Positions 6,534 through 64,000 of a stretch of DNA of 64,000 nucleotides are shown in pieces. The position numbers and the translations under genes are program-made. Below the pieces are notes generated by a model. It saw only the letters and a list, made by a program, of their open reading frames with translations. It had not been told where the DNA came from and searched no databases. How positions within the stretch are numbered: the first letter of the stretch is position 1; the number at the start of each line of letters is the position of its first letter. Origin of the DNA: Prorocentrum cordatum (Eukaryota; Sar; Dinophyceae; Prorocentrales; Prorocentraceae); assembly GCA_963575745.1 (NCBI GenBank), contig CAUYUJ010016471.1, positions 698,835 through 762,834 on the forward strand, given 5' to 3'.

Positions 6534-7890
6534 GACGGGTCCAATCTGCGTCCGCGTAGGACGTCACTATGCTGGACCCCGCAGCAGGTTTCGAAAGTGG
6601 CGATAGTTTCGTGGGCCCCACAGCAGCCCTCGAAAGTGGCGACAGTTTCACAGATCGCAGCCCCCCAGGGATGGCGAGGTCTAATCTGAGTCCCCGTAGA
6701 ACCTCACTCCGCTGGCCCCCCGAGCAGCTTTCGAAAGTGGCGACAGTTTCACAGATCGCAGCCCCCCAGGGATGGCGAGGTCTAATCTGTATTCCCGTAG
6801 GGCGTCACTCCGCTGGGCCCCCCACGCAGCCTTCGAAAGTGGCGACAGTTTCACAGATCGCAGCCCCCCAGGGACGGCGAGGTATAATCTGAATCCCCGT
6901 AGGGCGTCACTCCGCTGGGCCCCCCAGCAGCCCTCGAAAGTGGCGACAATTTCACAGATCGCAGCCCCCCAGAGATGGCGAGGTCCAATCTGAATCCCCG
7001 TAGGGCGTCACTCCGCTGTGCCCCCCAGCAGGCGTCGAAAGTGGCGATAGTTTCGCAGATCGCAGCCCCCCAGGGATGGCGAGGTCTAATCTGAGCCCCC
7101 GTAGGGCGTTACTCCGCTGGCCACCCCAGCAGCCCTCGAATGTGGCGACAGTTTCGCAGATCGCAGCCCCCCAGAGATGGCGAGGTCTAATATAAGTCCC
7201 AGTGGGGCGTCACTCCGCTGGCCACCCCAGCAGCCTTCGAAAGTGGCGACAGTTTCACAGATCGCAGCCCCCCAGGGATGGCGAGGTCTAATCTGAGTCC
7301 CCGTAGGGCGTCGCTCCGCTGGCCCCCCAGCAGCCCTCGAAAGTGGCGACAGATTCACAGATCGCAGCCCCCCAGGGATGGCGAGGTCTAATCTGAGTCC
7401 CCGTAGGGCGTCACTCCGCTGGCCACCCCAGCAGCCCTCGAAAGCGGCGACAGTTTCGCAGATCGCAGCCCCCCGGGGATGGCGAGGTCTAATCTGAGCC
7501 CCCGTGGGGCGTCCCTCCGCTGGCCACCCCTGCCGCCCTCGAAATTAGCGACAATTTCGCAGATCGCAGCCCCCCAGGGATGGCGGGGTCTAATATGAGT
7601 CCCCGTAGGGCGTCACTCCGCTGGCCACCCCAGCAGCCCTCGAAAGTGGCGACAATTTCGCAGATCGCAGCCCCCCAGGGATGGCGAGGTCTAATCTGAG
7701 TCCCCGTAGGGCGTCACTCCGCTGGCCACCCCAGCAACCCTCGAAACTGGCGACAGTTTCACAGATCGCAGCCCCCCAGAGACGGCGAGGTCTAATCTGA
7801 GTCCCCGTGGAGCGCCACTCCGCTGGCCACCCCAGCAACCCTCGAAACTGGCGACAGTTTCACAGATCGCCGCCCCCCAGGGATGGCGAG
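6534..7890. repeat. Tandem array of ~101-bp units (about 13 copies)
   Basis: Unit landmarks recur every 100-102 bases: CGAAAGTGGCGACAGTTT, CAGATCGCAGCCCCCCAGG, GATGGCGAGGTCTAATCTGA and CGTCACTCCGCTGGCC. The CCCCCC run begins at 6661, 6762, 6864, 6964 and 7065. The first unit, near 6590-6632, is internally deleted. Neighbouring units differ by a few substitutions. A single diverged copy occurs at 48614-48741, so the family is dispersed as well as tandem. Confidence 0.95.
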
Positions 7891-12573: not shown

Positions 12574-14610
12574 TTGGTCGGCCTGCTTGCGATACCGCTG
12601 CGCATTTCTCCGCAGCGTCTGCGACGGACGCCGGCACGGCCACAGAGGCCGCAGACGAGATTGGTTGGAAGCTAGTCCTCGGATCGCCGCTCGAGAGCTG
12701 GGCGATCATCGTGACGGAGCTGCTGCGACTGGCGCTGCGCCGCACCAGGTGGCACTGCGAGGGCGAGGCTCTCAAGGCCATCAAGGCTCGCGGCCGCGAG
12801 GTCAACGACGAGCATGGACGAGGCCAGGTTCGCGCCGCCCGAGCAGGCACTCGCCCAGGCGCAGCAGCCGCAGCAGCGGCAAGTCATCCAGCGGCTGCCG
12901 GCCCAGGCGGAGTCCGCCGAGGCCAGAGTGCAGGCGGCAGAGGCTATGGCTCAGGAGGCCCGAGGTCAAGAGCAGCAGCAGCGAGCAGCCCAGCCTGGCG
13001 GCCCGCCGCAGGAGACAAACATATTGATTGACACACGGGTCCTCGGCAAGCCTAGTGACTTCAATGGCGAGCCTGGGACCTGGCGTGACTGGAGTGCGAT
13101 TTTCCGAGCCTATGCCAGCGCGTGCGAGCCGGCCCTGAAGGACGCCATGGACAGGGCTGAGCATGCCGACACGCCAGTGCTGAATGCGACGCTGCCCGAC
13201 GACCAGGTACGCTTCAGCAGCCAGCTCTACTATATGTTGGTCATGCTGAACAAAGGCCTCTCGTTAGACCGCATTGTCAGTGCAGGAGTGAACGAGGGGC
13301 TGGAGGCGTGGAGAACCCTGGTAACCTTCCACGAGCCTCAGAGCCGCACCCGGGCAGCAGGGCTCCTTCAGGAGCTGCTCTCGTGGGACTTCGAAGGTGA
13401 CGTCCCCTCGAAGCTGATTGCGTTCGACAGGAATGTCAAGCGCTACGAGCAGGCTGTGGGTACAGAGTTTCCCGATGATATCAAGATAGGCATCCTGGTC
13501 CGCTCGCTCAAGGAGGGCCCGCTGCGCCACCACCTGCTCCTCAACAGCCAGCGGCTGAACACCTGGGAGCTCGTGAAGGCCGAGGTCGAGAACCTCAGGC
13601 GGGCCCAGACTGCGACGACGGCGAGCACTGGCACAGGCCCGACCCCGATGGACATCGACTCCCTGGCGCGGCAGCTGGCAGCTCTTGGCTTCAAGGGTGG
13701 CAAGAACGGCAAGGGCGGCAACGGCAAGGGCAGGGGCGGCAAGGCCGGCAAAGGCAAGGGCTCCGACAACCTGCCCACCAAGCCGTGCCCGATCTGTGGT
13801 AAGACAGGTACCTGGAAGCGAGACTGTTGGTGGAACACGACGGCTGCGTCAGGCAAGGCACCGCCGAAGGGCGGTGGAGGTCGAGGTCGTGGCAGAGGCA
13901 AGGGTGAAGCCAAGGGTGGTGGCGGACCGAAGCCGAAGCCATGCTGGACTTGTGGTTCGACAGCGCATCTAGCCAAGGACTGCCCGGTCGCCAAGAAGTC
14001 TGGCGCCCCGGGCGAGATGGGAGAGCCTGGGCCTCCTGAGGGCTTGGGTGGCCTCTTCCTGGCGGCGCTCGACCTGTCGGCCATGTCCTCGAGCTGTGAG
14101 ACGGCGCGCTTCGGGATCGACTCAGGCGCGGCGGTCGCAGCGATCCCGCGCGCGCTGGGGACCGACTACCCGATCACGGAGAGGCCGTCGGGAGCGCAGT
14201 ACCTCAGCGCGACGGGCGAGCCGATCCCAGATGAGGGCCAGCGCAAGCTCATGGTGCAGACTGGTGGTGCGCTACGGGGTATCAGGGCCCGTGTCGCGGG
14301 CGTCAGGCGGCCGCTGCTCTCGGTCTTCGACCTCGTGAAGAGCGGCCACCGCGTGGTCTTCGAGCAGGACCAGCACGGGAACGACATCAGCCACGCTGTC
14401 CACATCGAGAGTGGCAAGACCGTCCGCTTCACGCGGAGGCAGCGCACCTGGGACCTGGACGTGAGCATCGTGCCAGCGAAGGAGGTGAGCCAGATGTCCC
14501 AGACCCTCGTGAGGGAGCTCCCGCTCTGCTCGGTCGAGGGTTGCCGTGGTTGCAGCAAGCCACAGGATACGAAGCGTTTGTGCCCTTTCGGGCGGCAGGC
14601 GCTGCCGTAA
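12556..14610 (+). pseudogene. gag-pr: copia Gag and aspartic protease
   Basis: Gag packages the element RNA and the protease matures the polyprotein. The N-terminal part reads in one frame to about 12810, then one base shift leads into a 598-codon frame at 12814-14610. The Gag body has the copia-type WRDW and helical region. Two zinc knuckles follow. The second, CWTCGSTAHLAKDC (from 13942), is a canonical CX2CX4HX4C. The first, CPICGKTGTWKRDC (from about 13786), has Thr where the His should be. Gly/Lys-rich and Gly/Arg-rich linkers surround them. The protease active site is DSGA at codon 14119. The upstream frame break may be decay, since no slippery site is evident. Confidence 0.85.
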
Positions 14611-16085
14611 GACCGGCCATGATGGCGCCAGCAGTGGGACCTCCTGCGCTGCATGGCGTCGCTTCTGAGACAGGAGTGGTACCTCATGGAGTTGATGATG
14701 GGCAAGTTGCGACCATCGAGAGTCATCTCGGCGCAGCCGCAGGTGATCCTGTCCCGCCAGGTGGAGCTGCCGTGGCAGGGGACGACGGAGTTGGAAGTAC
14801 AATCGAGCTCGAGGGTGACGCCGAGGAGCGCCACGAATCTCAGCCCGCTCCAGTGCGAGCACGACGGGGGCCGAAGGAGCCGACCCAGGCTGAGATCGAG
14901 CAACACGAAGCAGCAGGTCACGTACCCTTCAGAGACTGGTGCTACTGCTGCTTGGCTGGGCGTGGCCGCGCCGATGGTCACCCAGCGGACGCTCCTGGGA
15001 GAGCGCATGCCATACCTACGTTTGCAGTTGACTACGGATACCTCGTGAAGCGGGAGGAGGTGGAATCGGGCCAGTCCGTGCTCCCCATCCTGGTCGGCAT
15101 CGACTCAGCCACCTCGCGGGTCAGCGCCGACGTCCTCCCGTCCAAGGGCATCCAGCATGAGTACAACGTGGTCCGCGCCTTCTGCCAGGTAGAGGTGACC
15201 GGCCACCCGAAGATCATCCACAAGTCCGATGGTGAGGGTGCCTTGGTGGCGCTCAAGCGAGAGGCGACGATCCGCTTCAGGAATCTGAAGTTCGAGGTCG
15301 TGCCCGAGGAGGCGCCGGCCTACGACAGCGCCAGCGACGGCCTGGCCGAGGTAGCAGTGAGGGAGGTCAAGGGCGCGTCGCGGTCTCTGCGAGTCGCCCT
15401 GCCCCTGCTGCGCGGCACTGACATCCCGAACGACCATCCAGTGCTGACCTGGCTGGTTGCTCACGCTGCGGGGTGCATCAATCGTGGCAAGATCGGCGCC
15501 GATGGACGGACCCCGCGCGAGAGGCACAAGGGCAAGGCCTTCCGCAAGGTGCTGCCGCCTTTCGGTGAGATCATCGTGTTCCTCCCGAGTGCGAGGCGCG
15601 ACACCAAGTTCGAGGAGCGTTGGAAGATCGGAGTCTTCCTGGGCGCCATCGAGAAGTCGAGCGAGATGCTCGTCGGCTACGACGGCAGTGTCGTACGTGC
15701 GCGGTCTATCAGGAGGAGGCCGCCGAGTCAGCGGGCTGATGCAGCCCTGTTGCGTTCGATCAGGGGCGCGCCATGGATGCCGACCCCGGACAAGCCAGAG
15801 AACGTTCGCATCCCGACGGTCATTGACGAGCCCCCTGTCGACCCAGCTGCACAGCAGCCGAGGGTTGTGCCAGAGCAGGTTCCAGCTGAACCTCGGAGCG
15901 TATACATTCGCAGGAACGTGGAGCTGGCCAAGTACGGCTTCACGGACGGGTGCCCGGGCTGCCTCGCGGCCCGCGCCAACGCATCAGCCAAGGCTCACAG
16001 CTCGGAGTGCCGTGAGCGCATCCAGCAGGCCATGGCGAACGACCCGGAGCTTGCCCCCCGAGTCTTTGGAGCGGCGGCTCGCTAG
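14541..16085 (+). pseudogene. int: copia integrase
   Basis: Integrase joins element cDNA to host DNA. The zinc-binding module is HEAAGHVPFRDWCYCC (first His codon 14904), an HHCC arrangement. The catalytic triad is Asp 15030 (AVDYGY), Asp 15228 (HKSDGEG) and Glu 15348 (LAEVAVREVKG), with about 40 residues between the last two, as usual for a DDE integrase. This frame overlaps the end of the protease frame (14541-14610) and differs from it, so one shift is needed. It closes at a TAG at 16083, beyond which the same frame reopens. Confidence 0.85.
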
Positions 16086-17297
16086 CTGGAGGCTGCTGAC
16101 AGGGCGCCTGCGCGCCAGGAGGGCGCGAGCTCTGGGGCACTGCCTCAAGCAGCCAGCCCGGCTGAGGCGCCGATGGAGATCGAGCGACCTGGCCGACGAG
16201 CTGCTGGGCGCCGAGGCTCGCCCGCGGAGTTGCCGCAGGCATCGAGGCGCCGCCTCGCGGTGCCAGGCGGGCCAGCACCCCTCACGCCAGCGATCAGCGG
16301 TGAGCAGCCGAGGACGCCCGCACAGGCGCCAGCCACGCCTCAGGCGCAGGCTGCAGGGCCGAGCGGGCTCCTCCAGGCGCCGCCTGGAGCTGGGGATCCC
16401 ATGGACGCGGACTCCCTGGAGCTCTGCGCGCTGCTGGCGGCTTTCGGCGACTGGAGGGTGGCCGTCAGCGAGCTCTACGGACCAGGACGGTTCACATCTC
16501 GGCCGAGTGCGTTCGACCTCGAGCCCGGCACAGCCTACGACATCAGGACCGGCTACGACTTCAGCCAGGAGGGTGACAGGCAGCGGGCGCAGGCCACCAT
16601 CGAGCTAGAGCAGCCACTGCCGATCACTGGCAGCCCGATGTGTGCGCCGTGGTCGAACCTGCAGGCCCTCAACGTCATCCAGGGTGTGGACGTCAACGCC
16701 ATCAACGCCATCATGGAGCGAGGCGTTGTCCACCTGGTCTTCTGTGCCGAGCGTTACAAAGAGCAGATCAAGGCTGACCGCCCCTTCTTGCACGAGCAGC
16801 CAGCATCATCGAGGAGTTGGCGTCTCTGGATGATCCGAGAGATCGCCGAGATGCCCGGAATACACTACGTAGAGTGCGATCAATGTGCGTATGGGTTGTG
16901 GTGCACCGATGCTGTCGGCCCGGCGCTGGTCAAGAAGCCCACGGGATGGTTGACCAACTCCGCTGAGATAGCCCGAGAGCTGACGCGTCGGTGTCCTGGG
17001 TGTGCTAGGCATTGCCAGACGGTCGGCCTAGGTCGGCGCGGCATGCGCATCATCGAGCGGTACCCAACGAAGCTTGCAGCTGCGGTGCTGCGTGGGCTAC
17101 GTCGCGAGGCGATCGCCCGCGGCCAGCTGGGTGCGCTGGAGGCCGGGCCACACCTGGACGAGCCACCGATCTGGGACGCCTACCCCGAGTACTACACGGA
17201 GATCGTCGACAATATCAGCAGGGCCGCTTTGGACCCCGAGCTCGTGGCGGCTGGCCGCAAGGAGGAGATGGAGTTCCTCCGCGGCCTGGGCGACTAA
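16086..17297 (+). pseudogene. copia integrase-RT linker region
   Basis: Same frame as integrase after the TAG at 16083, with Pro/Ala-rich low complexity to about 16400. An acidic and aromatic stretch follows (ELCALLAAFGDWRVAVSEL), then a Cys-containing segment (CDQCAYGLWC...CPGCARHC). That segment looks like a further metal-binding module before RT. It corresponds to the variable linker between integrase and RT in copia polyproteins. No independent enzyme is recognised. Confidence 0.6.
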
Positions 17298-19061
17298 GTG
17301 TACGACACCAAGCAGCGCTGCCGCGAGGAGACCGGGCGCGACCCGGCGCCCATGATCTGGGTGGACGTCAACAAGGGTGACGACCGTAAGCCCAACGTCC
17401 GCTGCAGGCTGTGCGTGGCGGAGACACGCTACCGCACGAGCATGGACCTGGGGGGCCCCTCGCAGACGTTCAGTGCGACACCCCGTATGAGGCTCTCAGG
17501 ATGTTGATTTCCTTCTGCTGCTCGCCCAGGAACGCCGAGGAGGACCAGCACGTCCTCATGTTCCTGGACATCACTAGAGCTCACCCGCACTGCGAGATGA
17601 AGCGGAAGCTGCGGGTGAAGCTTCGCGGAGGACCTTCGCTCAGCTGACCCCAGCGTGTGTGGGCTGCTGGTCAGGTGCCTTTACGGTTGCCGCGACGCGG
17701 GCCAGAACTTCGAGCTGTTGGTCCGTGAGACGCTGGAGGGCAAGATGGGCTTCTCCTGTGGCGCGTGGTGCCCCTGCATATACCGCAGAGGCGACGGCAA
17801 GCTCGTGGCCTACGTCTACGGCGACAACTTCGTGTTGAAGGGCTCCCGCACCGACAACCTGGAGTTCTACCGCGAGCTGCAGAAGTACATGTGGGTCAAG
17901 CTCGAGGGCATGTTGGGACCCAACAAGAGCGCTGGTGATGTTCAGGAGGTGGTCTGCCTGAACCGCGTCTTCCGCTGGGTCTCGAGAGGCGATGTGGAGC
18001 TCGAGGCTGACTCCCGCCACGCGTTCATCATGATGCAGCAGCTGAACCTCTGGCGCGGGTCAAAGGCCCTCTCGACGCCAGGAGTAAAGGCCAAGAGCGC
18101 GGGCCGCGGCAGGGTCCTGGAGGGCGAGGAGGCGACTCGCTACCGCAGCCTAGTCATGCGAGCCAGCTATCTCAGCGAGGACCGCCCGGACATCAAGTAC
18201 GCAGTCAAGGAAGCAGCGAAGTGCATGCACGAGCCGTGCGAGCACGGCATGGAGCTAGTCAAGAGGATTGCCAGGCATCTCCTGGGCCGTCCTAGGCTGG
18301 TTCAGAGGTTCCGACGCCGACGATGGTCAGGTGTGCTCAAGGGCTTCTCGGACAGCGACTTCGCCGGCTGCCTGGAGACCAGGAAGAGTACGAGCTGCGG
18401 AGTCTTCCAGCTGGGAGATCACATGATTCGGGTCTTCAGTGCGACCCAAGGCAGTGAGGCTCTCAGCTCAGGTGAGGCCGAGTGGTATGCTTTAGTGCAC
18501 ACTGTGTCCTGCGGGATCGGCCTAGTCTCGTTGGCGCGTGACATGGGATACGAGCTGGAGCTACGTTTGGCTGGCGACGCTACGGCCGCCAGTGGGATCG
18601 CGCACCGCCGAGGGGCAGGGCGCATCCGACATATCGAGACAAAGGCTCTCTGGCTCCAGCGTCATGTAACCGAGCGTCGAGTCATCCTTTCCAAGACGCT
18701 CGGTAAAGTCAACGTGGCAGATCTCGGCACGAAGCATCAGGCGCAAAAGGAGCTGGATGAGATGCTGGGACTGCTGGGATTTTTCGTGGCTACGGGCAAG
18801 TCTGCCCTCTCTCTCGCGGTCGCAGGCAACTTGCTTGATCCTGACCCAGCTTGCGAGCCCGAGGGCAAAGAAGAGGTGCAGGCGTGGCTTTCGCTTGATG
18901 TCGCCCGTGGCAGGCGACTGTGTTTTCATGTGCGCAGGCATGTTTCTCTGAGGTTGCATGTGGCGAGGCGTGCGAGTTTTCATTTCAGCTTCGCTGGAGC
19001 CACCCGGAGGTCGCCTGGGTCGAGTCTCGAGGGAGCTCGACGCGGCGGCGAGGAGGGCTGA
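17298..19061 (+). pseudogene. rt-rh: copia reverse transcriptase and RNase H
   Basis: RT copies the element RNA, and RNase H removes the RNA strand. RT begins near WVDVNKGDD and CRLCVAETRYRTSM. It shifts frame near 17480 to PYEALRMLISFC and motif A FLDITRAH (Asp 17567), then returns near 17640 to SVCGLLVRCLYGCRDAG. Motif C is YVYGDNF (Asp 17823), that is YGDN rather than YVDD. RNase H follows with FSDSDFAGCLETRKSTSCG, SSGEAEWYAL, GDATAASGIA and GRIRHIETKALWLQ, covering the acidic active-site residues. About 110 residues after the RNase H core form a basic tail. Confidence 0.88.
19043..19058 (+). other. Putative polypurine tract
   Basis: The purine-rich GAGGAGGG run directly before the 3' LTR is the expected plus-strand priming site. 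It is short and interrupted by C. Confidence 0.45.
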
Positions 19062-23732: not shown

Positions 23733-23766
23733 CCGTAGCCTCTGGCTCAAGCCTGGCTCAAGCCGT
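23733..23766 (+). other. Relic dinoflagellate spliced-leader sequence, tandem
   Basis: CCGTAGCCTCTGGCTCAAG matches the known DinoSL (core CCGTAGCCATTTTGGCTC) except for a two-base contraction and one change in the central ATTTT. It is followed at once by CCTGGCTCAAG and then CCGT, as if a partly deleted second and third leader were stacked. Genomic leader relics are known to mark genes that passed through a trans-spliced mRNA and re-integrated. The open frame starting at 23936 lies downstream. Confidence 0.5.
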
Positions 23767-23935: not shown

Positions 23936-25681
23936 ATGGAGGATGGGACTTCGGATCGTGGCGCCGATCATCATGGTAGAAGCCAGGGTGGGGGTATGAG
24001 CCTAGTGCAGGACCTGGGGGCCCAAACACTGGCAGCAGCCAGCTCTCCCTTGGAAAGCACCCCATCCCAGATCCCTCCTGGACAACCCTCGCCGCCAGAC
24101 CCAGAAACGGAACCGACCGACCCCATGACGATCAATCCTATGTCGGATCCGCCGATCGATCCCGCAGCTCCTGGTGAAAGGATGAATGACACTTCGGCCT
24201 TCAGCCGAGGAGACGATGATCTCCACAGTAGAAGCCTGGCAGATTCAAGAATAGAAGCGACCTTCAGTCGCAATCCTGGTAATCCTGGTCATCCTGGAAG
24301 AGAAGAAGCGATCTTCAGTCGCAATCCTGGCAATCGCAGTCAAGACAACGCTCTCCGTCCGCTCCCCACCTTCGATTATATATCCCACCCTCCCCCTTCA
24401 CCCTCAAGGCCCCCTAGTGTCAGGAGAGGAAAAAACACACAGACACAATTAATCCTCGATTCCCCAAAAAATATGGGAACCAATGGGAAGTGGGGGGAAG
24501 ACAGAAACCCAGAAAATATTGGAAAATTGAGGGAATATTATTATTTGTGTGCATTTATTTGTGTGTCCTGGGGCCTCTTCATAGTGGCCCTCACTCCTGG
24601 AGGGACTGTGCGCAATGGCCCCGACGCCACGGGCGTCGGCATTGCGGTGGGCACTGACCCCGATCCCTATCTCAGCGCCTGGAGTCAGCAGGATGCCACT
24701 GACTCCACCGATAGGGCCCCCAGCCCTCGCGGCGCGCGCGGCACCAATCGGGTCAACCTCCACCTGGGTGCCCCAGTTGCGGGGGCAGCGGACGATGGCG
24801 CCCTGCTTGGGACCCGCCCGACCCCCCTGGAAGAGGTGATGATGGCGATGCTTCACTAGCTGGCGAAGGAACTGCAGCCTTCAGCTGCGAGAGGCCCCCC
24901 CCAGAGCACGGATCACCACCCACCCACAGGCGAGCGAGTCACTCGCTTCCGAGGTTCAAGCCCTGGCGCACCACAGAGCGGTTCCCCGGATGCACCCTCA
25001 AGTGCAGCCAGTGGCCTGCAGACCTTACACGGAGAAGACAGGCCTTTCAGGCCAGAAGGAAACTTAGTGATGAGCCCTGCGGGGGGCGAAGCTCACGCCT
25101 CCACCGTGCACGGTGGCGGCTCGACGCGTCTCTCTCCTCCCCCTAGAACCACCCAGGAGAGCGACCCGCACAATGGAGCAGGAGATGCAGCCTTCAGCTG
25201 CCGAGCACTCTGGGGTGGCGAGGTACGCAGCAGAGCAGACACCAGACGCGATGTCGCCCCGGCTGCGCAGAGTCATCAGCATGGCGGCGCGGCTACGAGG
25301 GCTGCCACCAGGGGCGACGAGGGGGCCCAGGGCCCCGGTCCGATGGAAGCCCCCCCCCCCCCCGGAGACACCGCGGGAGGCTGCGCCCGCGTCGGCAGCG
25401 AAAGAGCGGCCTTCAGCCGCGCTAGGGGGGAACCGTCCTGCGACGGTGGGGGCGCCGACTGCAGGGGGGGGCCCGCGGCTCGAAACGGCGCGCAGCCTGG
25501 CGCGGACAGCGATGCTGAGGGTCAGAGGCCGCCCTCGATGGTTACAGGCGCCCCCCCCATTGCTTTCTCAGAAATGGCCGCCTTCAGCAGCAGAGAACTG
25601 GGCAGCGTCAATCCCGGCGGCGCCGACGCGGCGTCGGAGGCCGTCGCCGGGAGGGGCCGAGAGCCGCAGGCCCCGCCCTGA
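23936..25681 (+). pseudogene. Repeat-rich hypothetical frame with hairpin-encoded AAFS motifs
   Basis: A single frame is open from ATG 23936 to 25681 except for one TAG at 24857. It then shifts frame near 25680 and continues to about 26073. It encodes Pro/Gly/Ser/Arg-rich sequence punctuated by AFSR, AAFSC and AAFSS motifs at hairpin positions. An A/T-rich patch at about 24430-24570 encodes a hydrophobic run (YLCAFICVSWGLFIVAL) unlike the rest and may be inserted DNA. A relic spliced leader lies 170 bp upstream. No family recognised. It could be a decayed retroposed gene or a non-coding structured RNA locus. Confidence 0.35.
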
Positions 25682-25926
25682 TGGAACCCCCCCCTGGCCA
25701 CGCCGCGACCGGCAACGCGGCGCGGAGCGCGGGGGGAGCGACCGCCGGCTGCCTCGGGGGGGAGCTGCTGTTTGAAGGCATGGGCCCCCGCGGCAGAGCC
25801 ACCTCGGCTCCTGAAGCTTGCGGCCTGGATCGGACAGCGGCGCGGCGAACGGGCGCCCCCCCCCCCCCCCCCCCATGGGCGCGGAAGACCGCCCCCCAGT
25901 TTTCTCAAGCGGCTGCCTTCAGCAGC
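24194..25926 (+). repeat. Family of 15-nt hairpins with invariant CTTCA loop
   Basis: 5-bp stems flank CTTCA at 24194 (TCGGC/GCCGA), 24257 (GCGAC/GTCGC), 24308 (GCGAT/GTCGC, one G-T pair), 24874 and 25187 (GCAGC/GCTGC), 25406 (GCGGC/GCCGC) and 25912 (GCTGC/GCAGC). A copy at 25577 (GCCGC/GCAGC) has one mismatch. A TTTCA-loop variant with GGCC/GGCC arms is at 25041. Stem bases change in compensating pairs while the loop stays fixed. Another copy is at 61185. Confidence 0.75.
24430..24570. other. A/T-rich island inside the hairpin locus
   Basis: About 140 bp of A/T-rich sequence (AAAATATTGGAAAATTGAGG and neighbours) in otherwise very GC-rich DNA. Both edges are abrupt. I could not see clear target duplications or splice sites. 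Confidence 0.4.
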
Positions 25927-26320
25927 AGAGACCCAGCGGGGGCGTTTCCTGGGAGCGCCGACTCAGCGAGGAACCCTGGGCAGTCAGCGCAGCAAGTGAG
26001 CCGTGGGCCTCGCGACCCAGATGCAGCCCTGGCGGCGCCGGGCCCCCCGTGCGACAACCCCGCCGTAGAGTAGAGCCGTAGCGGGCACAACCGCTACACT
26101 CTGCAAAACGCAGATGTGGCATTCAGAGGTCCAAAAAAGGTTCTGGAAAGGTTTTAGAATATGGTAAAAAAAGGTCATATGGAGGTGTCGCGTTTTTGGA
26201 AAACAGTGTTTGTGTCAGAACCATGCGTTTGCGTTGATGATGATGACGATTTGGGATGATTGTAATACCGATGCGATGATTGATTATTGTAGCGATGTGA
26301 GTGTAACGCATGTAATGTAG
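25681..26320. other. Tail of the hairpin locus and spacer
   Basis: Coding-like sequence in a second frame continues to about 26073 with one further AAAFSSRD motif. After that the DNA becomes A/T-richer, with a GATGATGATGACGAT patch near 26236, and no gene is seen. Confidence 0.4.
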
Positions 26321-26554
26321 CGTGTGTTCCACTTGTGCAACTTGTGCCCATTGGGGGGGCAGGGGGAGGGGGAGGGCTTCTTGGAACTAGCCCCCAGGAG
26401 CGCGAAGATAATCGCGCTTCGCGCGTCGCGGCCTGGGCTGGAGAGCTGTCTTTCGCCTAAATGTCCTCGCGAGGGCGCGAAGATAACTGTCCGTCTCGCA
26501 TCGCGGAGTTGCTTTCATACAGCATGGTTGGTCCACGCCTCACTTTGCCTCTCC

Positions 26555-26597
26555 TCTTTAGCCGTTTTGGCTCATGCCATCGCCTGTTTGGCTTTTA
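26555..26597 (+). other. Two tandem DinoSL relics abutting the start codon
   Basis: The first copy, 26555-26576, contains AGCCGTTTTGGCTCATG and matches the 22-nt leader at 18 positions. The second copy begins immediately after it (26577, CCATCGCCTGTTTGGCTTTT) and is more diverged. It ends at the ATG at 26597. Tandem relics arise when an already leader-bearing retrogene is trans-spliced and re-integrated again. Confidence 0.6.
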
Positions 26598-29500
26598 TGG
26601 CACAACCCGCGAAACGAAGAGGCGGTGATATTGCCGTGGCACAACAAGCTGCGATTGAGAGCAAAAGGCAACGCAAGGAAACCACACTCGCTTTGATACA
26701 ACACGAGAAGCAATTTGATGTTCCTCGGTATATATTGAACCAGCTTGGCCGAACGTATGGCATGCTTGTGGGATCTCCTCTTGTGGATGTTGTGGGAAAC
26801 ATGGTAGTTGTCAAGCGTGACGCAGATCAGACGCCAGAGTCTTGCGAATTGTCCCAGTTTGCGAGGCAGTACGTTGATGCTTCCGAAGGCAGAACGACCG
26901 CGACGAGAACAGCTCAATCTTCTTCCTTAGACACGTCTCGAAAACAGTTGGCCTCGGAGATCAAGTCGTTCAGCGCTGCAGTGTGGTTGGTTGACCGCTG
27001 GTGGAGAAGGAATGTTATCAGAGCTATTTCTGGAGACCCACGCTCCACGCTGATGCAGACGATCGACGACGTTGGATACGATGAGACTCCTGCAGAAGTG
27101 GCTGGCACGACGCAAGTTAGATTCACATCTAGACCCCATGACATGCAAGCAGAGACCCAGATCGCCGTCAGATCACTACCCAAAATGTTCAAGGCAGCAC
27201 GAGCAGCGACCACCACCAAGCTTCTGATTACAGCGAACGCCTACGAGATTCTGTCAAAGAGGTCGGGTCCCAACGAGGGTGACCTTCCGAAGTATTTCAT
27301 TTTCCTCGGCTCCCACGTCTCCATCGCGCAGGCGCTGCAGTCGAACTGCGTCGGCGACATCATGAACGCATTGGAGGTTTCACAGTGTTCTTCGGAGATG
27401 GAGGCGTTGGCTGAAGATGCATCGCGGTGCGTTCACGTTGACAGACACCCGTCAAATCTCCAGTGCGAGAGGCGTTTGTTGCGTCGCCGTCTACGACAAC
27501 ACTCACGTTGGCCTACGTTTCTTTCGACATGCGCCCAACACAAAGCAATGACGATATCAAATTCGATTCTTTTCCCACAGGAGATGAACGACGCTGCCTC
27601 TGCGATCACGCACGTCAGCTTATCTCTTAAGATTGGTACTTTCCGAGTGGCCTTTACGGAGTCGATGCACGACGTCATTCGAGAAAAGGTCCATGTCAGA
27701 GAAGGCGTGTGTGAAGATGAAGATACACTCTATCGTCGCCTCGTTCTTCGATGGTTCATTCGGGTTGGGTCTCGAGCGTCCGTGAGGCGCATGCTGTGCG
27801 ACAGGTTGGCCCCGTGTTGTTGGAACAACGACAAGATATACTACTGGGTGCCCCCTGGCTCAGAATACGACGAAGAAGAGATCAAATCGAGCGTTGCTTC
27901 GGGGCTCACCGAGGCTTTCACGAATAAGATTTGGCCTGTATTCAACAGGAAGAAAATGGCTCGGGGCGAGGAGGCGCTCTGTGACTTCACGCTTCCACTT
28001 CTGTGCTGCGGGGTGTTGAAAGAAGCTTACGCCGAGTGCTGTAAGCGCCTGAGGCCCAAGAAAACGGCGAATTCAAGTGACGCAGCCACACCCGTGGATC
28101 CCTCGAGCCTCGCTCTTGTTCCAGCGGAAGCTGGCGCTCGCGTTCCAGTGGAAGCTGGCGGTTTTGCGGACGATACAACGTGGGCCAAGCAGAACGCTTA
28201 CAGCAGGAAAGTGGGAATGAAGTTCTTGGAAGGAGCTGGCGGCATCAAACCTACTGGAGTGTGCGTGGTCCTCCGCATGGTGTACGCTGTGACGAGCCGC
28301 GTTGAGAAGGATTACCTCTATGTCGCATCCGACAGGTTTGAGTTGAAACAGCAAGCCATCGCCGCCAAGAAAATCCAAGACGGGGTAGCAAGACCCCAAG
28401 AGTTGCTTAGAGATTACGCTGCGTTGATCCGTGCTCGGGGTGCTATTGAGGGCAGGGCTCTCAGGCAACTGAGGTGTCTTATGTTTGATACGAGAGTGTG
28501 GTGCTTGGTTCCCACGCAGGAGATGACAGTACAGCTGTCTGCCATCGCATTCCAAGCCATGTCCCGAGCAGGAGCGCAGACCGAGAGACTCTTGGCCAAG
28601 CCGCACTCTCTTCCTCCTTGGCGGCTGCTGCTCGTAGCCGAGCAGCCTGACCTAGCGGACTCCATGAAGTCGTATCGGCGTTGCGGTCTTGACAAGTGGA
28701 GTCGCACTTTCATGGAGAACAACGACATATCGACTTTTGAGGCCAGGCTCAAGATCACGTTGCACCTCATCGCCATCAAAGTAACCACCACCAAGCGCGA
28801 GAACGACAATGGCAACATGAGACGGATTGTGAAGAAACGCGTTCAAACGCAGAAAGCAGACTTGGTTTCGCTCAACGGTGACTGGATCCAGCAGCAATGC
28901 AGGTGCGAGAAGAAGCACGGACAGTACTGCGACGCCACCCAGGGCGACGGAGACGCGGAGCACGTTGGCGAGGACGGCGCGAACGACACCGACCATGTTC
29001 GTGGTGGCGGCGGTGGTCCCTGGAGATGCTTCGTGCGCAAGCAGAAGAGCAACGACTTGCACAACGTTGCTGTCCTGTACCGTGCCCTCAGGGACACTGT
29101 CGGTAGCGATTTGCTCGATCAGTGCATTCGAGAAGGCGCCGAGGCTGCGCGCCGACGGCGAGAGGGGAACACCAATGGCACTTCTTTCGGACCGGCTACC
29201 AAGCAGATCAACCGAGTGAAACGTGAACGGTTCCAAGTAGCTTGCGTGGAAGCTGTGCGGCGTGGCGATGTCGATGCACAGATCTCAAAGATAATGGATC
29301 AAGCCGCAGCCAATGACTACGACCTGAAGCGCGCCGTCTCGCTGGCAGCAACTTGCGATCGCCAGATCGCGGCAGTGCAGCGCGAGGCCGAGTCCAAGGA
29401 CAAGATGACAGTGCAGAAGTATGAGGCCGACAACACGGGTGACCTTCGCAGAGAGCTCTCTTCGCACGATGATCGGCTTAAAGTAGTGATGCCCTCTTTT

Positions 29501-30869
29501 GTGGCTGCTCCCCCGCCCTTCCTCGGTGTCAACTGCGTTCAGCAGACGAAGATTGGGGCCGTCAAGGCCGCAGATGAGCTCATCCAGTATTGCAAAGGCT
29601 TCAAAAAGCACCACACAAACCTGCTGAAGACCTTGGACAGTCAGATGGACCACTTGTGCCGCCTTTGCAGGGACCCCGCCGAGAATAAGAAAGACTCGTC
29701 GGACGAGGAGGGCGACGACGTCCGCGAGTCACCGTGCTGGCGCGCGGGAGTCTGCATCTGCAGCGAAGATGGCTGCGCTCGGAAGGTTTTCAGGCAGAAC
29801 ATATTGTTGGGGATGAAACGCGCCTTCCCCGTTGGCAACCCCAACCGTGATCTCCTTGGTGCTGGCCGCGTGTTTGTGGAGCTCACTGGCGAGCCGTCTG
29901 AGGAACAACGAGAGCTTGCAGAGATTTACAATCTAGACGACAAGCGTGGTATCGTCTGGCATTTGAGTTACCAGTCGTGGTCGCCGTACGAGCCCATGGT
30001 CCAGGCCATGGTTCTGCCGCTCCCAGAGGAGGCGGCGTTGGTGTCGCCGTCCGACGGCGAGAGGGCGTTGAAGGCCGCCCATGTTTCAAATCGTGTCTAC
30101 CCCCCTACCCATGCCCCCAAGGCCTATGCAAAAATCATGTGTTTTTGGGTTATGTGTGGGATGTTGGTGGCGACGATGGGGGGACGAGGGAGCGAAGGGG
30201 AGGCAGGGGGAGGGCGGGGGGGCGCAGAATGAACGCAGGGAGGGGTTGGGGGAGGATGGAGGAAAGAACGAAGGAGGAGGAGGAGGAGGAAAGGCGGAAG
30301 GGATGAGGGAGTGAGTTTTGGTTTGGTTTGAGTGCGGCGCCCCCCAGGCCGTTGGAGAGTTCCAGACGCTGTGCGACGCGGTGGCCGAGCTGGAGCGCGA
30401 CGCGCTCACGTGGTCGATGAGCTTCCTGGAGCTTGCGACGCACGCGCGCCCGCTCGGCGCCATGGCGCCCGCCGTTCAGCTCGTCAAGAAGCTGCCGTAC
30501 GAGAGCGCTCAAGTATGGCCGAGCCCTCCTCGTCAACCGGCTGGTCGTGGGCGAGGTCGAGCGGCTGGTCGTGGGCGAGGTGGCCGAGGCGCTGCAGGTC
30601 CAGCTCGCCGTGGCGGGCGAGGTGGCCGAGGCCGAGGCGCTGCAGATCCAGCTCTCGGTCGCGGCGCTGGAGGCGCCCGCGGCCGCGGGGTGGCCGCGGC
30701 GCCGCTGGCTCTCGAGGACGGGGGCCCCGAGTCGGAGCGCGCGTCGGCCCCCGAGGACGGCGCGGAGGAGCTGCTGGCCCACAGCGACGCCTCGTCCACG
30801 TCGAGCGGCGACGACAGCGGCGACGAGAAGGGAGGCGAGGACCGCTTGGGCAGGGCCTCGCTAATCTGA
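26597..30869 (+). CDS. Large hypothetical protein, two exons (about 1335 residues)
   Basis: Exon 1 is 26597-30082 and exon 2 is 30348-30869. The ATG at 26597 was chosen because it directly follows the leader relics and starts unbiased protein sequence. The frame is open further upstream, but that part is low complexity. The protein begins with a basic, nuclear-signal-like stretch (PAKRRGG...ESKRQRKE). It has mixed helical sequence and Cys/His groups CRCEKKHGQYC (residue about 768) and HLCRLC with CWRAGVCICSEDGC (about 1020-1060) that could bind metal. It ends with an Arg/Gly-rich stretch and an acidic Ser-rich tail. No known family recognised. A nucleic-acid-binding role is only a guess from the RG and Cys regions. 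The intact 3.5-kb frame argues for a live gene. Confidence 0.75.
30083..30347 (+). other. Predicted intron (265 bp, phase 0)
   Basis: Donor GTTTCAAATCG follows codon CAT at 30080-30082. The acceptor CCCCCAG|GCC ends at 30347. Both flanks are phase 0 and join LKAAH to AVGEFQTL, which restores unbiased protein sequence. The intervening bases are G-rich repeats with no coding character. Confidence 0.65.
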
Positions 30870-60540: not shown

Positions 60541-61061
60541 AGATGGGGGCGCTAGAAGCATCCTGGAAGCCAGAAGTCGCCAGAGCTGGGGCCCTCCTGG
60601 GGAGGCGCGATCCCAGTGCTGGCCCACCCAGAGTGGTCGCCGCAGTCGTTGTCGCCCTGCCCGGGAACGACAACGCCCAGACAGCAGAAACCGCAGGGTG
60701 CCGAGCTGGCTTCGCCTTGCTCCCGCACATCGAGGGCCCCGTCCGCAGCGCCAGAGTCGTTGGGGACAATCTTGCCGCCATCAGATACGGCGCTGGGACG
60801 GGTCGCTACAGGCGGCTCCACCTTGCGCAACAGATGGATTTCGCCCTGAGACAGGCGGCCAACGGAGGCTGGACGCTCTCTCGGCAGGCCGTTCGTCGGC
60901 GGCTCAACAAGGCCGCCGACCGAGTCGCGACGCTCGGCGAATTCTGGGCCGACGCCCTGAGGGCTGCCGGGCACCGCGCTGTTTATATTTTGGTCGCGTG
61001 GGCGGCACATCCCCCCCCCCCTTCCCACGGGTTTCTTTTGTCCTGGCACGAATCTCTGTGA
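60522..61061 (+). pseudogene. RNase H-like domain, retroelement type
   Basis: RNase H degrades RNA in RNA-DNA hybrids. The segment has AETAGCRAG, placing the expected Glu on a helix, then RVVGDNLAAIRYGAG (Asp codon near 60765) and, after a helical stretch, WTLSRQAVRRRLNKAADRVAT, supplying the last Asp in the N..AD..A context. This order matches the RNase H module at the 3' end of non-LTR retrotransposons seen in dinoflagellates. The first Asp-bearing strand is not clear (perhaps GRRDPSAG). The frame ends soon after a poly-C run near 61010, consistent with a homopolymer frame error or the natural end. Confidence 0.55.
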
Positions 61062-61330
61062 CCTGGATGAGGTCCTCCTCGCCGCCAGCGCTCTGGGCAA
61101 CTCCCCCCCCCCTCCTTCCCCCCTCCGCCCCTGCAGCCCGCCGCGCCCGTTCGCCAAGGTCGCTGTGGCTTCCTTGCAGAAAGTGCAGCCTTCAGCTGCC
61201 TCCTGGTTTCCTGGCATGCCGACCTTCAGCTGCCTCCTGGTTTCTTGGTATGCCGAACAACAGTGGGCCACTCAGAAGGCGGGCGTCATGCCTCCCTTGC
61301 TCGTAGGACGGGCCCCCGCATAGGGACGGA
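61062..61330. repeat. Poly-C spacer, CTTCA hairpin and 34-bp tandem duplication
   Basis: A perfect GCAGC-CTTCA-GCTGC hairpin lies at 61185-61199. From 61191 a 34-bp unit (TTCAGCTGCCTCCTGGTTTC plus 14 more bases) is repeated once, 61191-61224 and 61225-61258, with about three differences. The second copy keeps the CTTCA loop but has lost most of the left arm. Confidence 0.7.
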
Positions 61331-62005
61331 ATGCGCGTCTTCCTGGCGAGATGCTGTCCTTGGCTGCGGCGGGCGTGCTTCGACGGAAGGTGGAGGCGGT
61401 GCTGCGAGCTGCGCCAGAAAGCATGCGATGGCATCGACCACCTACTCGGCGCAGATCACTATTGGCAGGGATCGCGACAGTATTCGAGCGGGTGGCCAAA
61501 TCCCAGCACTTCCACATCCCCTGGCAATCTGTGGACCATGACCTGGGGCACGACCTGGGACGGTGACCATAGCTGCTACATCGAGAGGAAGGCCTGGGCA
61601 GGTTGGCCGCCAGCACAGCCCATCGATGCCAACGGTGCTCGGCTGCTCTTTGGGTTAGCGATCCTGGAAGATTGCTTCCACGTGCCCACCAGTTACCCGC
61701 TCTCGGATGATCCCGTGGACTACATCTGTCCCGGGGGCACACTGTTCGACCCGACGCAGGTCCGACCAGCCGACATCAGCAGCGCTCAGGCGAATATGTG
61801 GAGGCCCCGGAAGTCTGACAGGGACGAGAGGGCCGCCGTCTTGGCAAAGTCCACCTCACCCCTGGACACCATGCCCCCGCAGTCCGCTGACCCGCCCACC
61901 GCGCTCGGGTCTTATTCAGACGGCGCCACCGCCTCCAGCAGCGGGGGCAACGGTCCCCAGCTGCCTGGGCCCAGCCGCAGCAGCAATCTCACACCGTCAG
62001 GCTAG
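61331..62005 (+). pseudogene. Coding-like segment upstream of the helicase, unknown
   Basis: A 224-codon open frame. The middle (RKAWAGWPPAQPIDANGARL, LAILEDCFHVPTSYPL) reads like folded protein, and the end is Ser/Gly/Pro-rich. No domain recognised. It probably belongs to the same broken reading unit as the helicase below. Confidence 0.35.
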
Positions 62006-62823: not shown

Positions 62824-64000
62824 GTGACCTTCGGGCTCCCCCTGCCCAACGCACCCAAGGAGGACATGGCTGGCGCCAACGACGCCGTCAGAACCGGCAG
62901 GGTCGGGCACTACTTCCGGGCGAGAGCCTCTGCCACGCTCGAGCTCCCTGTCCCGGACGCTGACATCGAAGCCCTTCAGGTGCCTGGCATGACCCAGCAC
63001 GTGCCCCCGCAGCCCCTGGACGTTCCCGCCTTCTCAGATGATGAAGTAGGCTCCGCAGTGGGCCAGGTTTTCCAGAGAGCGAGGACGAGGCCCTCGCAAG
63101 AGACCCTGGATTCAGGCGCAGACCGACACGGCCTCAATGCAGACGCCAGGCGGGCGCTCCAGGCCACCGTGAAGCACCGCGTCGTTGTCGTACACGGCCC
63201 TCCTGGCACAGGCAAGACCAAGCTGTCCACCGCGACGCTCGACATCTGGGGCGGCACACTCATGCGCGGACAGGCGGTTGCGCTTGCCGCGGGTTCGAAC
63301 ACCGTAGCTGACCAGCTCGCCATCGCCATGACTGCCGCTCACCGCGCTCATCAGCTCGACCCAGACGCCTGCTTCCCAGACCGCTTCGGCTAGAAAGGAG
63401 AAGGTCGACGAAGAGCTCATTGGCCTCACCCCGGAGGGGCACTTCCAGAAGGCCCCGGGGGGCTTACCATACATCGAAGGAGGCACCTCGCCTGACTTCC
63501 CGGCGTTCCGATCGGAGCTCATCTGCAAAGCACAGGTGATCATCTCCACACACGAGGCAGCGGAGGCACTGGGTGGGTGTTCGAACCAGCCAGCGCTCCT
63601 GGTGATCGACGAAGCTGGGCAGACCACCGAGCTTCACTCCACCATGTCCCTGGTCAACTTGATCCGCAGTGGAAGCCACTTGGTCCTGGTGGGTGACCCT
63701 AAGCAGCTTCCTCCTACCGTCATCTCCAAGCTGGCCACCGACCTGGGGCTCTGCGTCAGCGTCTTCGACCGCCTGTACTACGCCCTGCGAGGACAAGACA
63801 CCGCAGTCGCACAGCTCACCGTGTGCTATAGGATGCGCCCGCAAATCCTGGGCTGGCCGAACTGGGCCTTCTACCACAGCGGCATGGTCAGCGGCCTCAC
63901 CAACCCGCTGGCAGATCGGCCCTTGAATAAAGGTCTCCCATGGCGTCCGATCTGCGCCTGGGACGGCGCCAGACTAGACGAACTGGCCAAGCTCACAAAC
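62824..64000 (+). pseudogene. UPF1-like superfamily 1 helicase, frameshifted, runs off window
   Basis: Family members unwind RNA or DNA using ATP (UPF1, Dna2, SMUBP2, senataxin). Walker A is HGPPGTGKT at about 63195-63219, after a segment with ADARRALQATVKHRVVVV. The frame stops at 63391, one base shift leads to KVDEELIGLTPEG, and that frame stays open to base 64000. It holds motif II VIDEAGQ (about 63602-63622), motif III GDPKQLPPTV (about 63694) and motif IV CYRMRPQIL (about 63826). DEAG followed by Q and YRMxP are typical of the UPF1-like group. The frame change at 63385-63392 could be decay, an assembly error or an unrecognised intron. C-terminal motifs V and VI lie beyond the window. Confidence 0.75.

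Follow-up and report, generated by a model that had tools for sequence, protein, structure and literature searches.

The locus and its surroundings

The stretch of Prorocentrum cordatum DNA analysed here, referred to throughout as the window, is 64,000 nucleotides long. Between positions 24194 and 25926 it contains eight short sites of a common pattern, NNNNNCTTCANNNNN (N5-CTTCA-N5', 15 bases with 5-base arms), of which six are perfect hairpins, one contains a G-T pair and one a mismatch. All eight lie within a putative low-complexity gene, and the coordinates of this gene, of the hairpins and of the other features are collected in Table 1.

The DNA of the window is most likely nuclear, and it is taken to be of the P. 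cordatum type on the basis of its reverse transcriptase and of a spliced-leader match. The reverse-transcriptase ORF of a copia-type retrotransposon (17655-19061) is 91% identical, at 67% query coverage, to an unnamed protein of P. cordatum, and among the 120 of 161 matches listed the other organisms named are the dinoflagellates Amphidinium carterae and Karenia brevis, most of the entries carrying no name. At 26556, 17 of 21 bases match the consensus of the dinoflagellate spliced leader, compared with best matches of 14 to 16 in 60 shuffled windows. An in-frame ATG (26597) of a long orphan ORF, 26324-30232, follows 21 bases downstream, an arrangement which suggests that the gene may have passed through a trans-spliced mRNA and then re-entered the genome. 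No protein relatives of the gene following the hairpin locus were found at E up to 0.001 among the 7999 candidates with the most words in common. Upstream of the hairpin gene, CCGTAGCCTCTGGCTCAAGCCTGGCTCAAG at 23733-23762 looks, by eye, like a relic of the spliced leader that has been rearranged and has its 3' part repeated; this region is not among the best full-length spliced-leader matches. At 62824-64000 there are matches to AAA_11 above the cut-off in two open frames of different register, the second of which also matches AAA_12 below it. Both are probably fragments of a single helicase, lying 1.6 kb from a ninth hairpin outside the gene (61185).

Over 23936-26100 one absolute frame (mod 3 = 2) has 4 stops and the other two have 16 and 14. 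Across the codon positions of 25067-25681 and 25681-26073 GC content hardly varies, in contrast to the clearer genes of the window. No Pfam domain was detected at E up to 0.01 in the ORFs 23936-24859, 25067-25681 and 25681-26073 (a set that leaves aside the frame at 24874), and no protein relatives of 25067-25678 were found at E up to 0.01 among 1045 candidates. The designation is kept at probable gene because of this flat composition and the lack of a domain or relative; as far as the sequence goes, 23936-26073 is probably an orphan, low-complexity, fast-changing nuclear gene.

The eight sites, together with a ninth outside the gene, read as [AS][ATI]FS[RCS], every one in an open frame and with Phe-Ser invariant. 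A preliminary description of this DNA had the hairpins reading, in one frame, as AAFSR, AAFSC or AAFSS. Those peptides were found, but SAFSR, ATFSR and AIFSR occur too, and whereas six of the eight copies in the cluster have a common frame, the remaining two, 24874 and 25912, use another absolute frame. Its contention that selection acts on something other than protein sits badly with nine open frames out of nine and a Phe-Ser unchanged in all of them. The open frame containing the motif measures 1149 nt (three copies), 429 nt (one), 819 nt (three) or 552 nt (one) in the cluster and 468 nt at 61185; at 24874 an alternative frame is open for longer (819 vs 429 nt). If there is one gene, introns or indels must join the frame of 24874 and 25912 to the rest. 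Homopolymer C-runs of up to 8 and 19 are found in the intervals that separate the frame groups, the longest between copies being 19.

Table 1. Features of the window; positions are counted from its first base.
Position	Strand	Feature	Remarks
6614-7890		101-base tandem repeat, 12.7 copies	six copies with perfect hairpin GCTGG-CCACC-CCAGC
12814-19061		open pieces of a copia-type retrotransposon	zinc knuckle at 12814-14610
23936-26073	+	putative low-complexity gene with eight cluster copies	open pieces 23936-24859, 24860-25681, 25681-26073
24194-24208	+	hairpin TCGGC-CTTCA-GCCGA, SAFSR	predicted stem extended by one G-U and one C-G pair
24257-24271	+	hairpin GCGAC-CTTCA-GTCGC, ATFSR	tandem partner of 24308 (45 nt, 84%)
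24308-24322	+	hairpin GCGAT-CTTCA-GTCGC, AIFSR	one T-G pair
24874-24888	+	hairpin GCAGC-CTTCA-GCTGC, AAFSC	absolute frame unlike most cluster copies
25041-25053	+	variant GGCC-TTTCA-GGCC	doubtful member; self-complementary GGCC arms
25187-25201	+	hairpin GCAGC-CTTCA-GCTGC, AAFSC	perfect
25359-25690	+	first copy of tandem ~335-nt segment	from alignment
25406-25420	+	hairpin GCGGC-CTTCA-GCCGC, AAFSR	within first copy of ~335-nt segment
25577-25591	+	GCCGC-CTTCA-GCAGC, AAFSS	one C-A mismatch; first copy of ~335-nt segment
25691-26050	+	second copy of ~335-nt segment	from alignment
25738-25752	+	GCGACCGCCGGCTGC	probable decayed counterpart of 25406; second segment copy
25912-25926	+	hairpin GCTGC-CTTCA-GCAGC, AAFSS	second segment copy; homologous to 25577
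61185-61199	+	ninth copy, perfect GCAGC-CTTCA-GCTGC, AAFSC	35 kb from cluster
61219-61233	+	partial copy CCGAC-CTTCA-GCTGC, 3/5 pairs	inside 34-base tandem duplication adjoining 61185

Inventory and duplication of the hairpins

All of the hairpins named in the preliminary description are present at 24194-25926, and the family was if anything slightly understated, as the perfect copy at 61185 lies beyond the stretch that was described. The statement that the stems always compensate is too strong, there being one C-A mismatch (25577) and one G-T pair (24308). The variant with a TTTCA loop that had been counted as a relative does exist at 25041-25053, but its membership is doubtful: GGCC arms pair trivially and the variant has no + strand covariance-model match up to E = 10. 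Both it and the partial copy at 61219 are excluded from every nine-copy count. Three copies (24874, 25187 and 61185) have the identical 15-mer GCAGC-CTTCA-GCTGC, and the tests on "six distinct stems" omit 25187 and 61185, which have the same 15-mer as 24874, as well as 24308, the partner of 24257. When a covariance model was run on the window the nine copies scored 28.3-31.3 bits, high scores being expected of the copies on which the model was trained, and the next best match scored 12.5 bits; the scores are bimodal, and the scan found no tail of decayed copies in between. No Rfam family matched in the window at gathering scores.

Alignment indicates that local duplication is one source of hairpin copies, a conclusion drawn from a tandem pair (24257/24308) and from a pair in a duplicated segment (25577/25912), the latter being explained by duplication of the ~335-nt segment. 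Aligned end-to-end, 25359-25690 and 25691-26050 are 69% identical over 312 ungapped columns, with a score of 122 (at most 93 in 500 shuffles), and when the hairpin block and the C-runs were removed the flanks of the segment pair gave scores that 3/500 and 15/500 shuffles equalled. The two hairpins are homologous in this alignment (14/15 bases), more clearly so than any other copies, and the one silent difference between them decides whether a pair forms, with no compensating change. What faces 25406 in the second copy of the segment has diverged, is without CTTCA and has broken arms; the best ungapped offset between 25738 and 25406 is 332 (18/30 bases), the offset of 335 being given by gapped alignment.

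Outside the segment pair and the tandem pair the flank homology of the copies is weak or absent. When the flanks of copy pairs were compared against composition shuffles, p was 0.05 or less in 7 of 66 tests (about 3 expected), and the copy at 61185 is involved in three of these seven. The regions 25691-26090 and 61000-61400 align with a score of 66 (at most 53 in 100 shuffles), in an alignment that passes through C-runs and has the two hairpins out of register, and 25174-25392 aligns to 25564-25690 with a score of 53 (at most 50 in 100 shuffles). None of seven further segment comparisons went beyond its own shuffles (e.g. 53 vs at most 54, 46 vs 62). These alignments hint that the 335-nt periodicity may extend more widely and that the 61-kb locus may be homologous. 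The preliminary description had named an origin as one tandem protein repeat, with no excess of compensating changes, as a finding that would count against it; duplication was found for part of the copies, but the excess of compensating changes persists.

The predicted stability of the hairpins is unexceptional, with a folding-energy z below -2, relative to shuffled sequence, in only one of the nine copies and z above 0 in four. The 5-bp hairpin is part of the predicted minimum-energy form for 7/9 copies, one of which (24308) lacks it in its centroid. At 25577 the predicted fold has a broken stem, and 25912 favours a shifted register with a 4-base loop. The size of the arms is constant, the sixth pair outward being Watson-Crick in 0/9 copies and G-T in 2/9.

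Complementarity of the arms

Counting Watson-Crick pairs only, the window contains 104 perfect hairpins in which each arm and the loop are 5 bases long, and in seven of these the loop is CTTCA. Among 60 locally shuffled windows CTTCA was the loop of no such hairpin in 54 and of one in 6. Even the best-represented loop of a shuffled window occurred twice (51 windows) or three times (9 windows), and a chance origin of the CTTCA hairpins is ruled out by these shuffles. A comparison with shuffled sequence and with other pentamer loops had been proposed beforehand for the whole genome and, on the scale of the window, it shows an excess, at 7 for CTTCA vs at most 3 for any loop after shuffling, with the caveat that the pattern was picked by eye out of 64 kb. 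The second-commonest loop is CCACC, whose six hairpins all come from one 101-base tandem repeat and have a single stem. A tandem DNA repeat of this type was rejected for CTTCA, as its stems differ among copies: there are five distinct perfect stems with 5-base arms. Among loops of 5-10 bases with arms of 4-6 bases, no loop exceeds three distinct stems except CTTCA and CCTTCAG, the latter being the CTTCA sites taken with a wider loop. Shorter loops, of 3-4 bases, reach up to 15 distinct stems.

An important consideration in assessing the stems is that in arms of the form GCNGC...GCN'GC four of the five pairs come free, GC being self-complementary, so that the evidence rests on the third pair and on the two groups of copies outside GCNGC. 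These groups, TCGGC and GCGAC/GCGAT, have changes in both arms. With the residues held fixed and the codons redrawn, the mean number of perfect copies was 0.16 or 0.23, depending on which of two codon tables was used, compared with the 7/9 observed, and 0/20000 redraws reached seven with either table. Dealing the 3' arms anew among the copies gave p = 7.5e-5 for all nine and p = 0.0028 for the six distinct stems. The arms are more complementary than codon choice makes them.

The last residue had been said to change together with silent changes in the first codon, and the silent base of codon 1 does match the first base of codon 5 in 8/9 copies (permutation p = 0.0009) and in 5/6 distinct stems (p = 0.017). 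The silent site in the loop (third base of codon 2) is C in 9/9 copies and all four bases occur at the silent site of codon 1, a contrast with a Fisher p of 0.0004, or 0.015 on six distinct stems. Over the nine copies 44 of 45 cells are paired, which none of 500 shuffles equalled. Two-sided changes were present in three of the five pairs, and 16/500 shuffles were as high. A covariation test of the kind proposed at the outset found the stems above both sorts of control, with a score of 0.50 vs 0.18 in shuffled alignments (0/500 as high) and at most 0.11 in six slid controls; the copies on which these tests draw are few and some rows are related by duplication. The number of further standard pair types was not above that of shuffles (206/500 as high). 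Of the assertion that selection or copying acts on structure, the part that finds support is that complementarity goes beyond codon choice.

Competing explanations and their implications

A number of explanations can be considered for these sites. Our preferred one, held tentatively at a probability of about 0.40, is that the codons carry, besides the peptide, a fixed-size mRNA hairpin that is under selection. A coding motif for [AS][ATI]-Phe-Ser-[RCS] would be repeated within the probable gene and found once more 35 kb away; the gene would be transcribed, and each motif would fold in the mRNA into a hairpin with a 5-bp stem and a 5-nt loop. A putative protein would read the shape of the hairpin together with the CUUCA loop and bind to it, and selection would then keep the arms complementary at silent or loosely constrained codon positions whilst the peptide Ala/Thr/Ile-Phe-Ser was also maintained. 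With several such hairpins arrayed in a single message, more protein molecules would be bound, with possible roles in localisation, translation control or stability. The argument for selection on the hairpin is made from the 7/9 perfect copies, the arm permutation, the covariation, the fixed silent C of the loop and the constant geometry, and also from the bimodal model scores, the open frames at all nine copies and the number of distinct stems of CTTCA, which sets it apart from other loops of 5-10 bases. Against it are the small number of copies, nine, of which some are duplicated, leaving p at ~0.003 once they are collapsed, the ordinary predicted stability, and pair types that are not above shuffles. 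The uncompensated change between 25577 and 25912, the loss of the counterpart of 25406 and the longer rival frame at 24874 also count against it, as do the flat codon-position GC and the failure to find a relative of either the ORF or the next gene. A dimeric DNA-binding site was rejected on the reasoning that a site read by its sequence would be expected to keep its arm sequence, yet the arms vary.

The most serious rival to a selected hairpin is template switching during replication, in which a polymerase that switches between the arms repeatedly makes one complementary to the other. It needs no function for the hairpin; overall we regard it as rather unlikely. The ancestral motif, GCNGCCTTCAGCNGC, would by virtue of its codons have been an accidental quasi-palindrome with four of five pairs free, and the coding of Phe-Ser would keep the loop. 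A single step of this kind yields double changes, and template-switch events have been reported from coding genes of yeast (PMC8604942); it has also been proposed that RNA stems arise and persist through them (PMC8794818). In 51.5 kb of the window, tandem arrays and leftover pieces of under 200 bases having been left out, perfect hairpins exceeded order-2 local shuffles by factors of 1.18, 1.36, 1.74, 2.22 and 2.26 for arms of 5-9 bases (501 vs 424.6 expected, sd 28.3, for 5-base arms), and hairpins with one internal mismatch gave 0.98, 1.00, 1.09, 1.29 and 1.51. Perfect hairpins are over-represented more than one-mismatch ones, and increasingly so with arm length, as homogenisation predicts, and this excess is a possible footprint of template switching. 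However, the footprint is small at 5-base arms (1.18), and part of the excess could come from uneven composition that the shuffles miss. Template switching also leaves unexplained the silent C in 9/9 loops and the limit of five pairs, beyond which no sixth pair is Watson-Crick. No copy with the loop inverted to TGAAG is present among the perfect hairpins, although coding would purge such copies. The CTTCA sites resemble template-switch quasi-palindromes in their complementary double changes in stems, coding DNA included (PMC8794818, PMC8604942), but they differ, in our judgement, in having a fixed arm length and a conserved silent base in the loop.

It is also conceivable, if unlikely, that selection keeps the peptide [AS][ATI]FS[RCS] and nothing else, the codons having descended from one perfect ancestor and the compensation being partly luck. 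The open frames with their invariant Phe-Ser fit such an account, as do the free GCNGC pairs, the more modest p of 0.017 that permutation of the third pair gives on six distinct stems, the one segment-duplicated pair and the three copies with an identical 15-mer. Set against this, residues R, C and S at position 5 form no chemical class, but are three of the four residues having an NGC codon, the exception among the R copies being SAFSR with CGA. The 8/9 agreement of codons 1 and 5, the changes to both arms in the TCGGC and GCGAC/GCGAT groups and the failure of codon redraws to reach seven are likewise left unaccounted for by the peptide.

The suggestion in the preliminary description of a mobile mini-hairpin, that is a 15-bp self-complementary element repeatedly inserted into coding sequence in one frame, gained no direct evidence and appears highly unlikely. 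Rickettsia palindromic elements are mobile bacterial elements of 100-150 bp found inside reading frames, and the CTTCA sites would be a miniature analogue of them, similarly self-complementary and inside reading frames, but only 15 bp long and with mobility no more than a candidate property. One dispersed copy in 64 kb, the perfect one at 61185, is 35 kb away and outside the gene, a clear shared place in duplicated segments exists for 25577/25912 only, and the covariance model gave two separate groups of scores and detected no decayed copies, all of which favour mobility. No direct repeat of at least 3 bases flanks any of the nine 15-mers, on which ground a mobile element with target duplications was rejected, and the pair 25577/25912 is due to segment duplication. 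Nor was an empty site found, the one counterpart open to comparison, 25738, being substituted relative to 25406 and not shorter; covarying arms would be unusual among copies of a single mobile sequence, and the similarity of the flanks of 61185 to those of cluster copies (3 of 7 low-p pairs; 66 vs 53) hints at ordinary duplication. In a viral-contig control the 15-mer GCAGCCTTCAGCTGC was found at 114 loci, all of which were examined (964,406 bases), and a scan for GCGGCCTTCAGCCGC matched at least 120 loci. A second, unrelated CTTCA hairpin occurred at 2/114 of the GCAGCCTTCAGCTGC loci, and in 1/114 GAA or GAG stood at the upstream place that is occupied by GAA in 4/9 of the copies in the window; from these two figures it is concluded that the viral contigs hold no family of CTTCA hairpins. 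A broader proposition is that there is a eukaryotic nuclear family of 15-bp self-complementary CTTCA-loop sequences, spread through coding sequence in a single fixed frame and changing in sequence with the stems still complementary, either as a minimal hairpin element or as a genome-wide mRNA-hairpin code read by a loop-specific RNA-binding protein, and this we consider quite unlikely.

Comparison with systems described elsewhere is instructive. Introns of P. cordatum are reported to be enriched in inverted repeats, and dinoflagellate introners have inverted repeats of 8-20 nt at the intron ends and direct repeats of 3-5 nt at the borders (PMC7789003, PMC10666404). The CTTCA sites are like them in being inverted repeats in genes and unlike them in that 5-nt arms surround five bases that are read as codons. 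An introner was rejected as an explanation because the arms are 5 nt, there is no intron inside and direct repeats of at least 3 bases do not flank the sites. Perfect inverted repeats of up to 284 bp have been described in the coding sequence of Nematomorpha mitochondrial genes (PMC6649704). There too inverted repeats lie within coding sequence and structure and peptide are kept together, but the CTTCA sites are nuclear, 15 bp long and have one fixed loop and covarying stems. In the titles and abstract openings of the matches listed in a literature search there was no account of a CTTCA coding-hairpin motif.

If it is the pairing that is selected, the sites would be a rare case of a 15-base stretch serving both a peptide and an RNA structure, with both constraints testable in one gene. 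If they result instead from template switching, the locus would document how hairpin arms in coding DNA become homogenised in nature. Dinoflagellates have been described as regulating their genes mainly after transcription (PMC12787238), and a repeated hairpin site in a coding mRNA would, if selection on the hairpin is the true explanation, provide a concrete handle on dinoflagellate post-transcriptional control.
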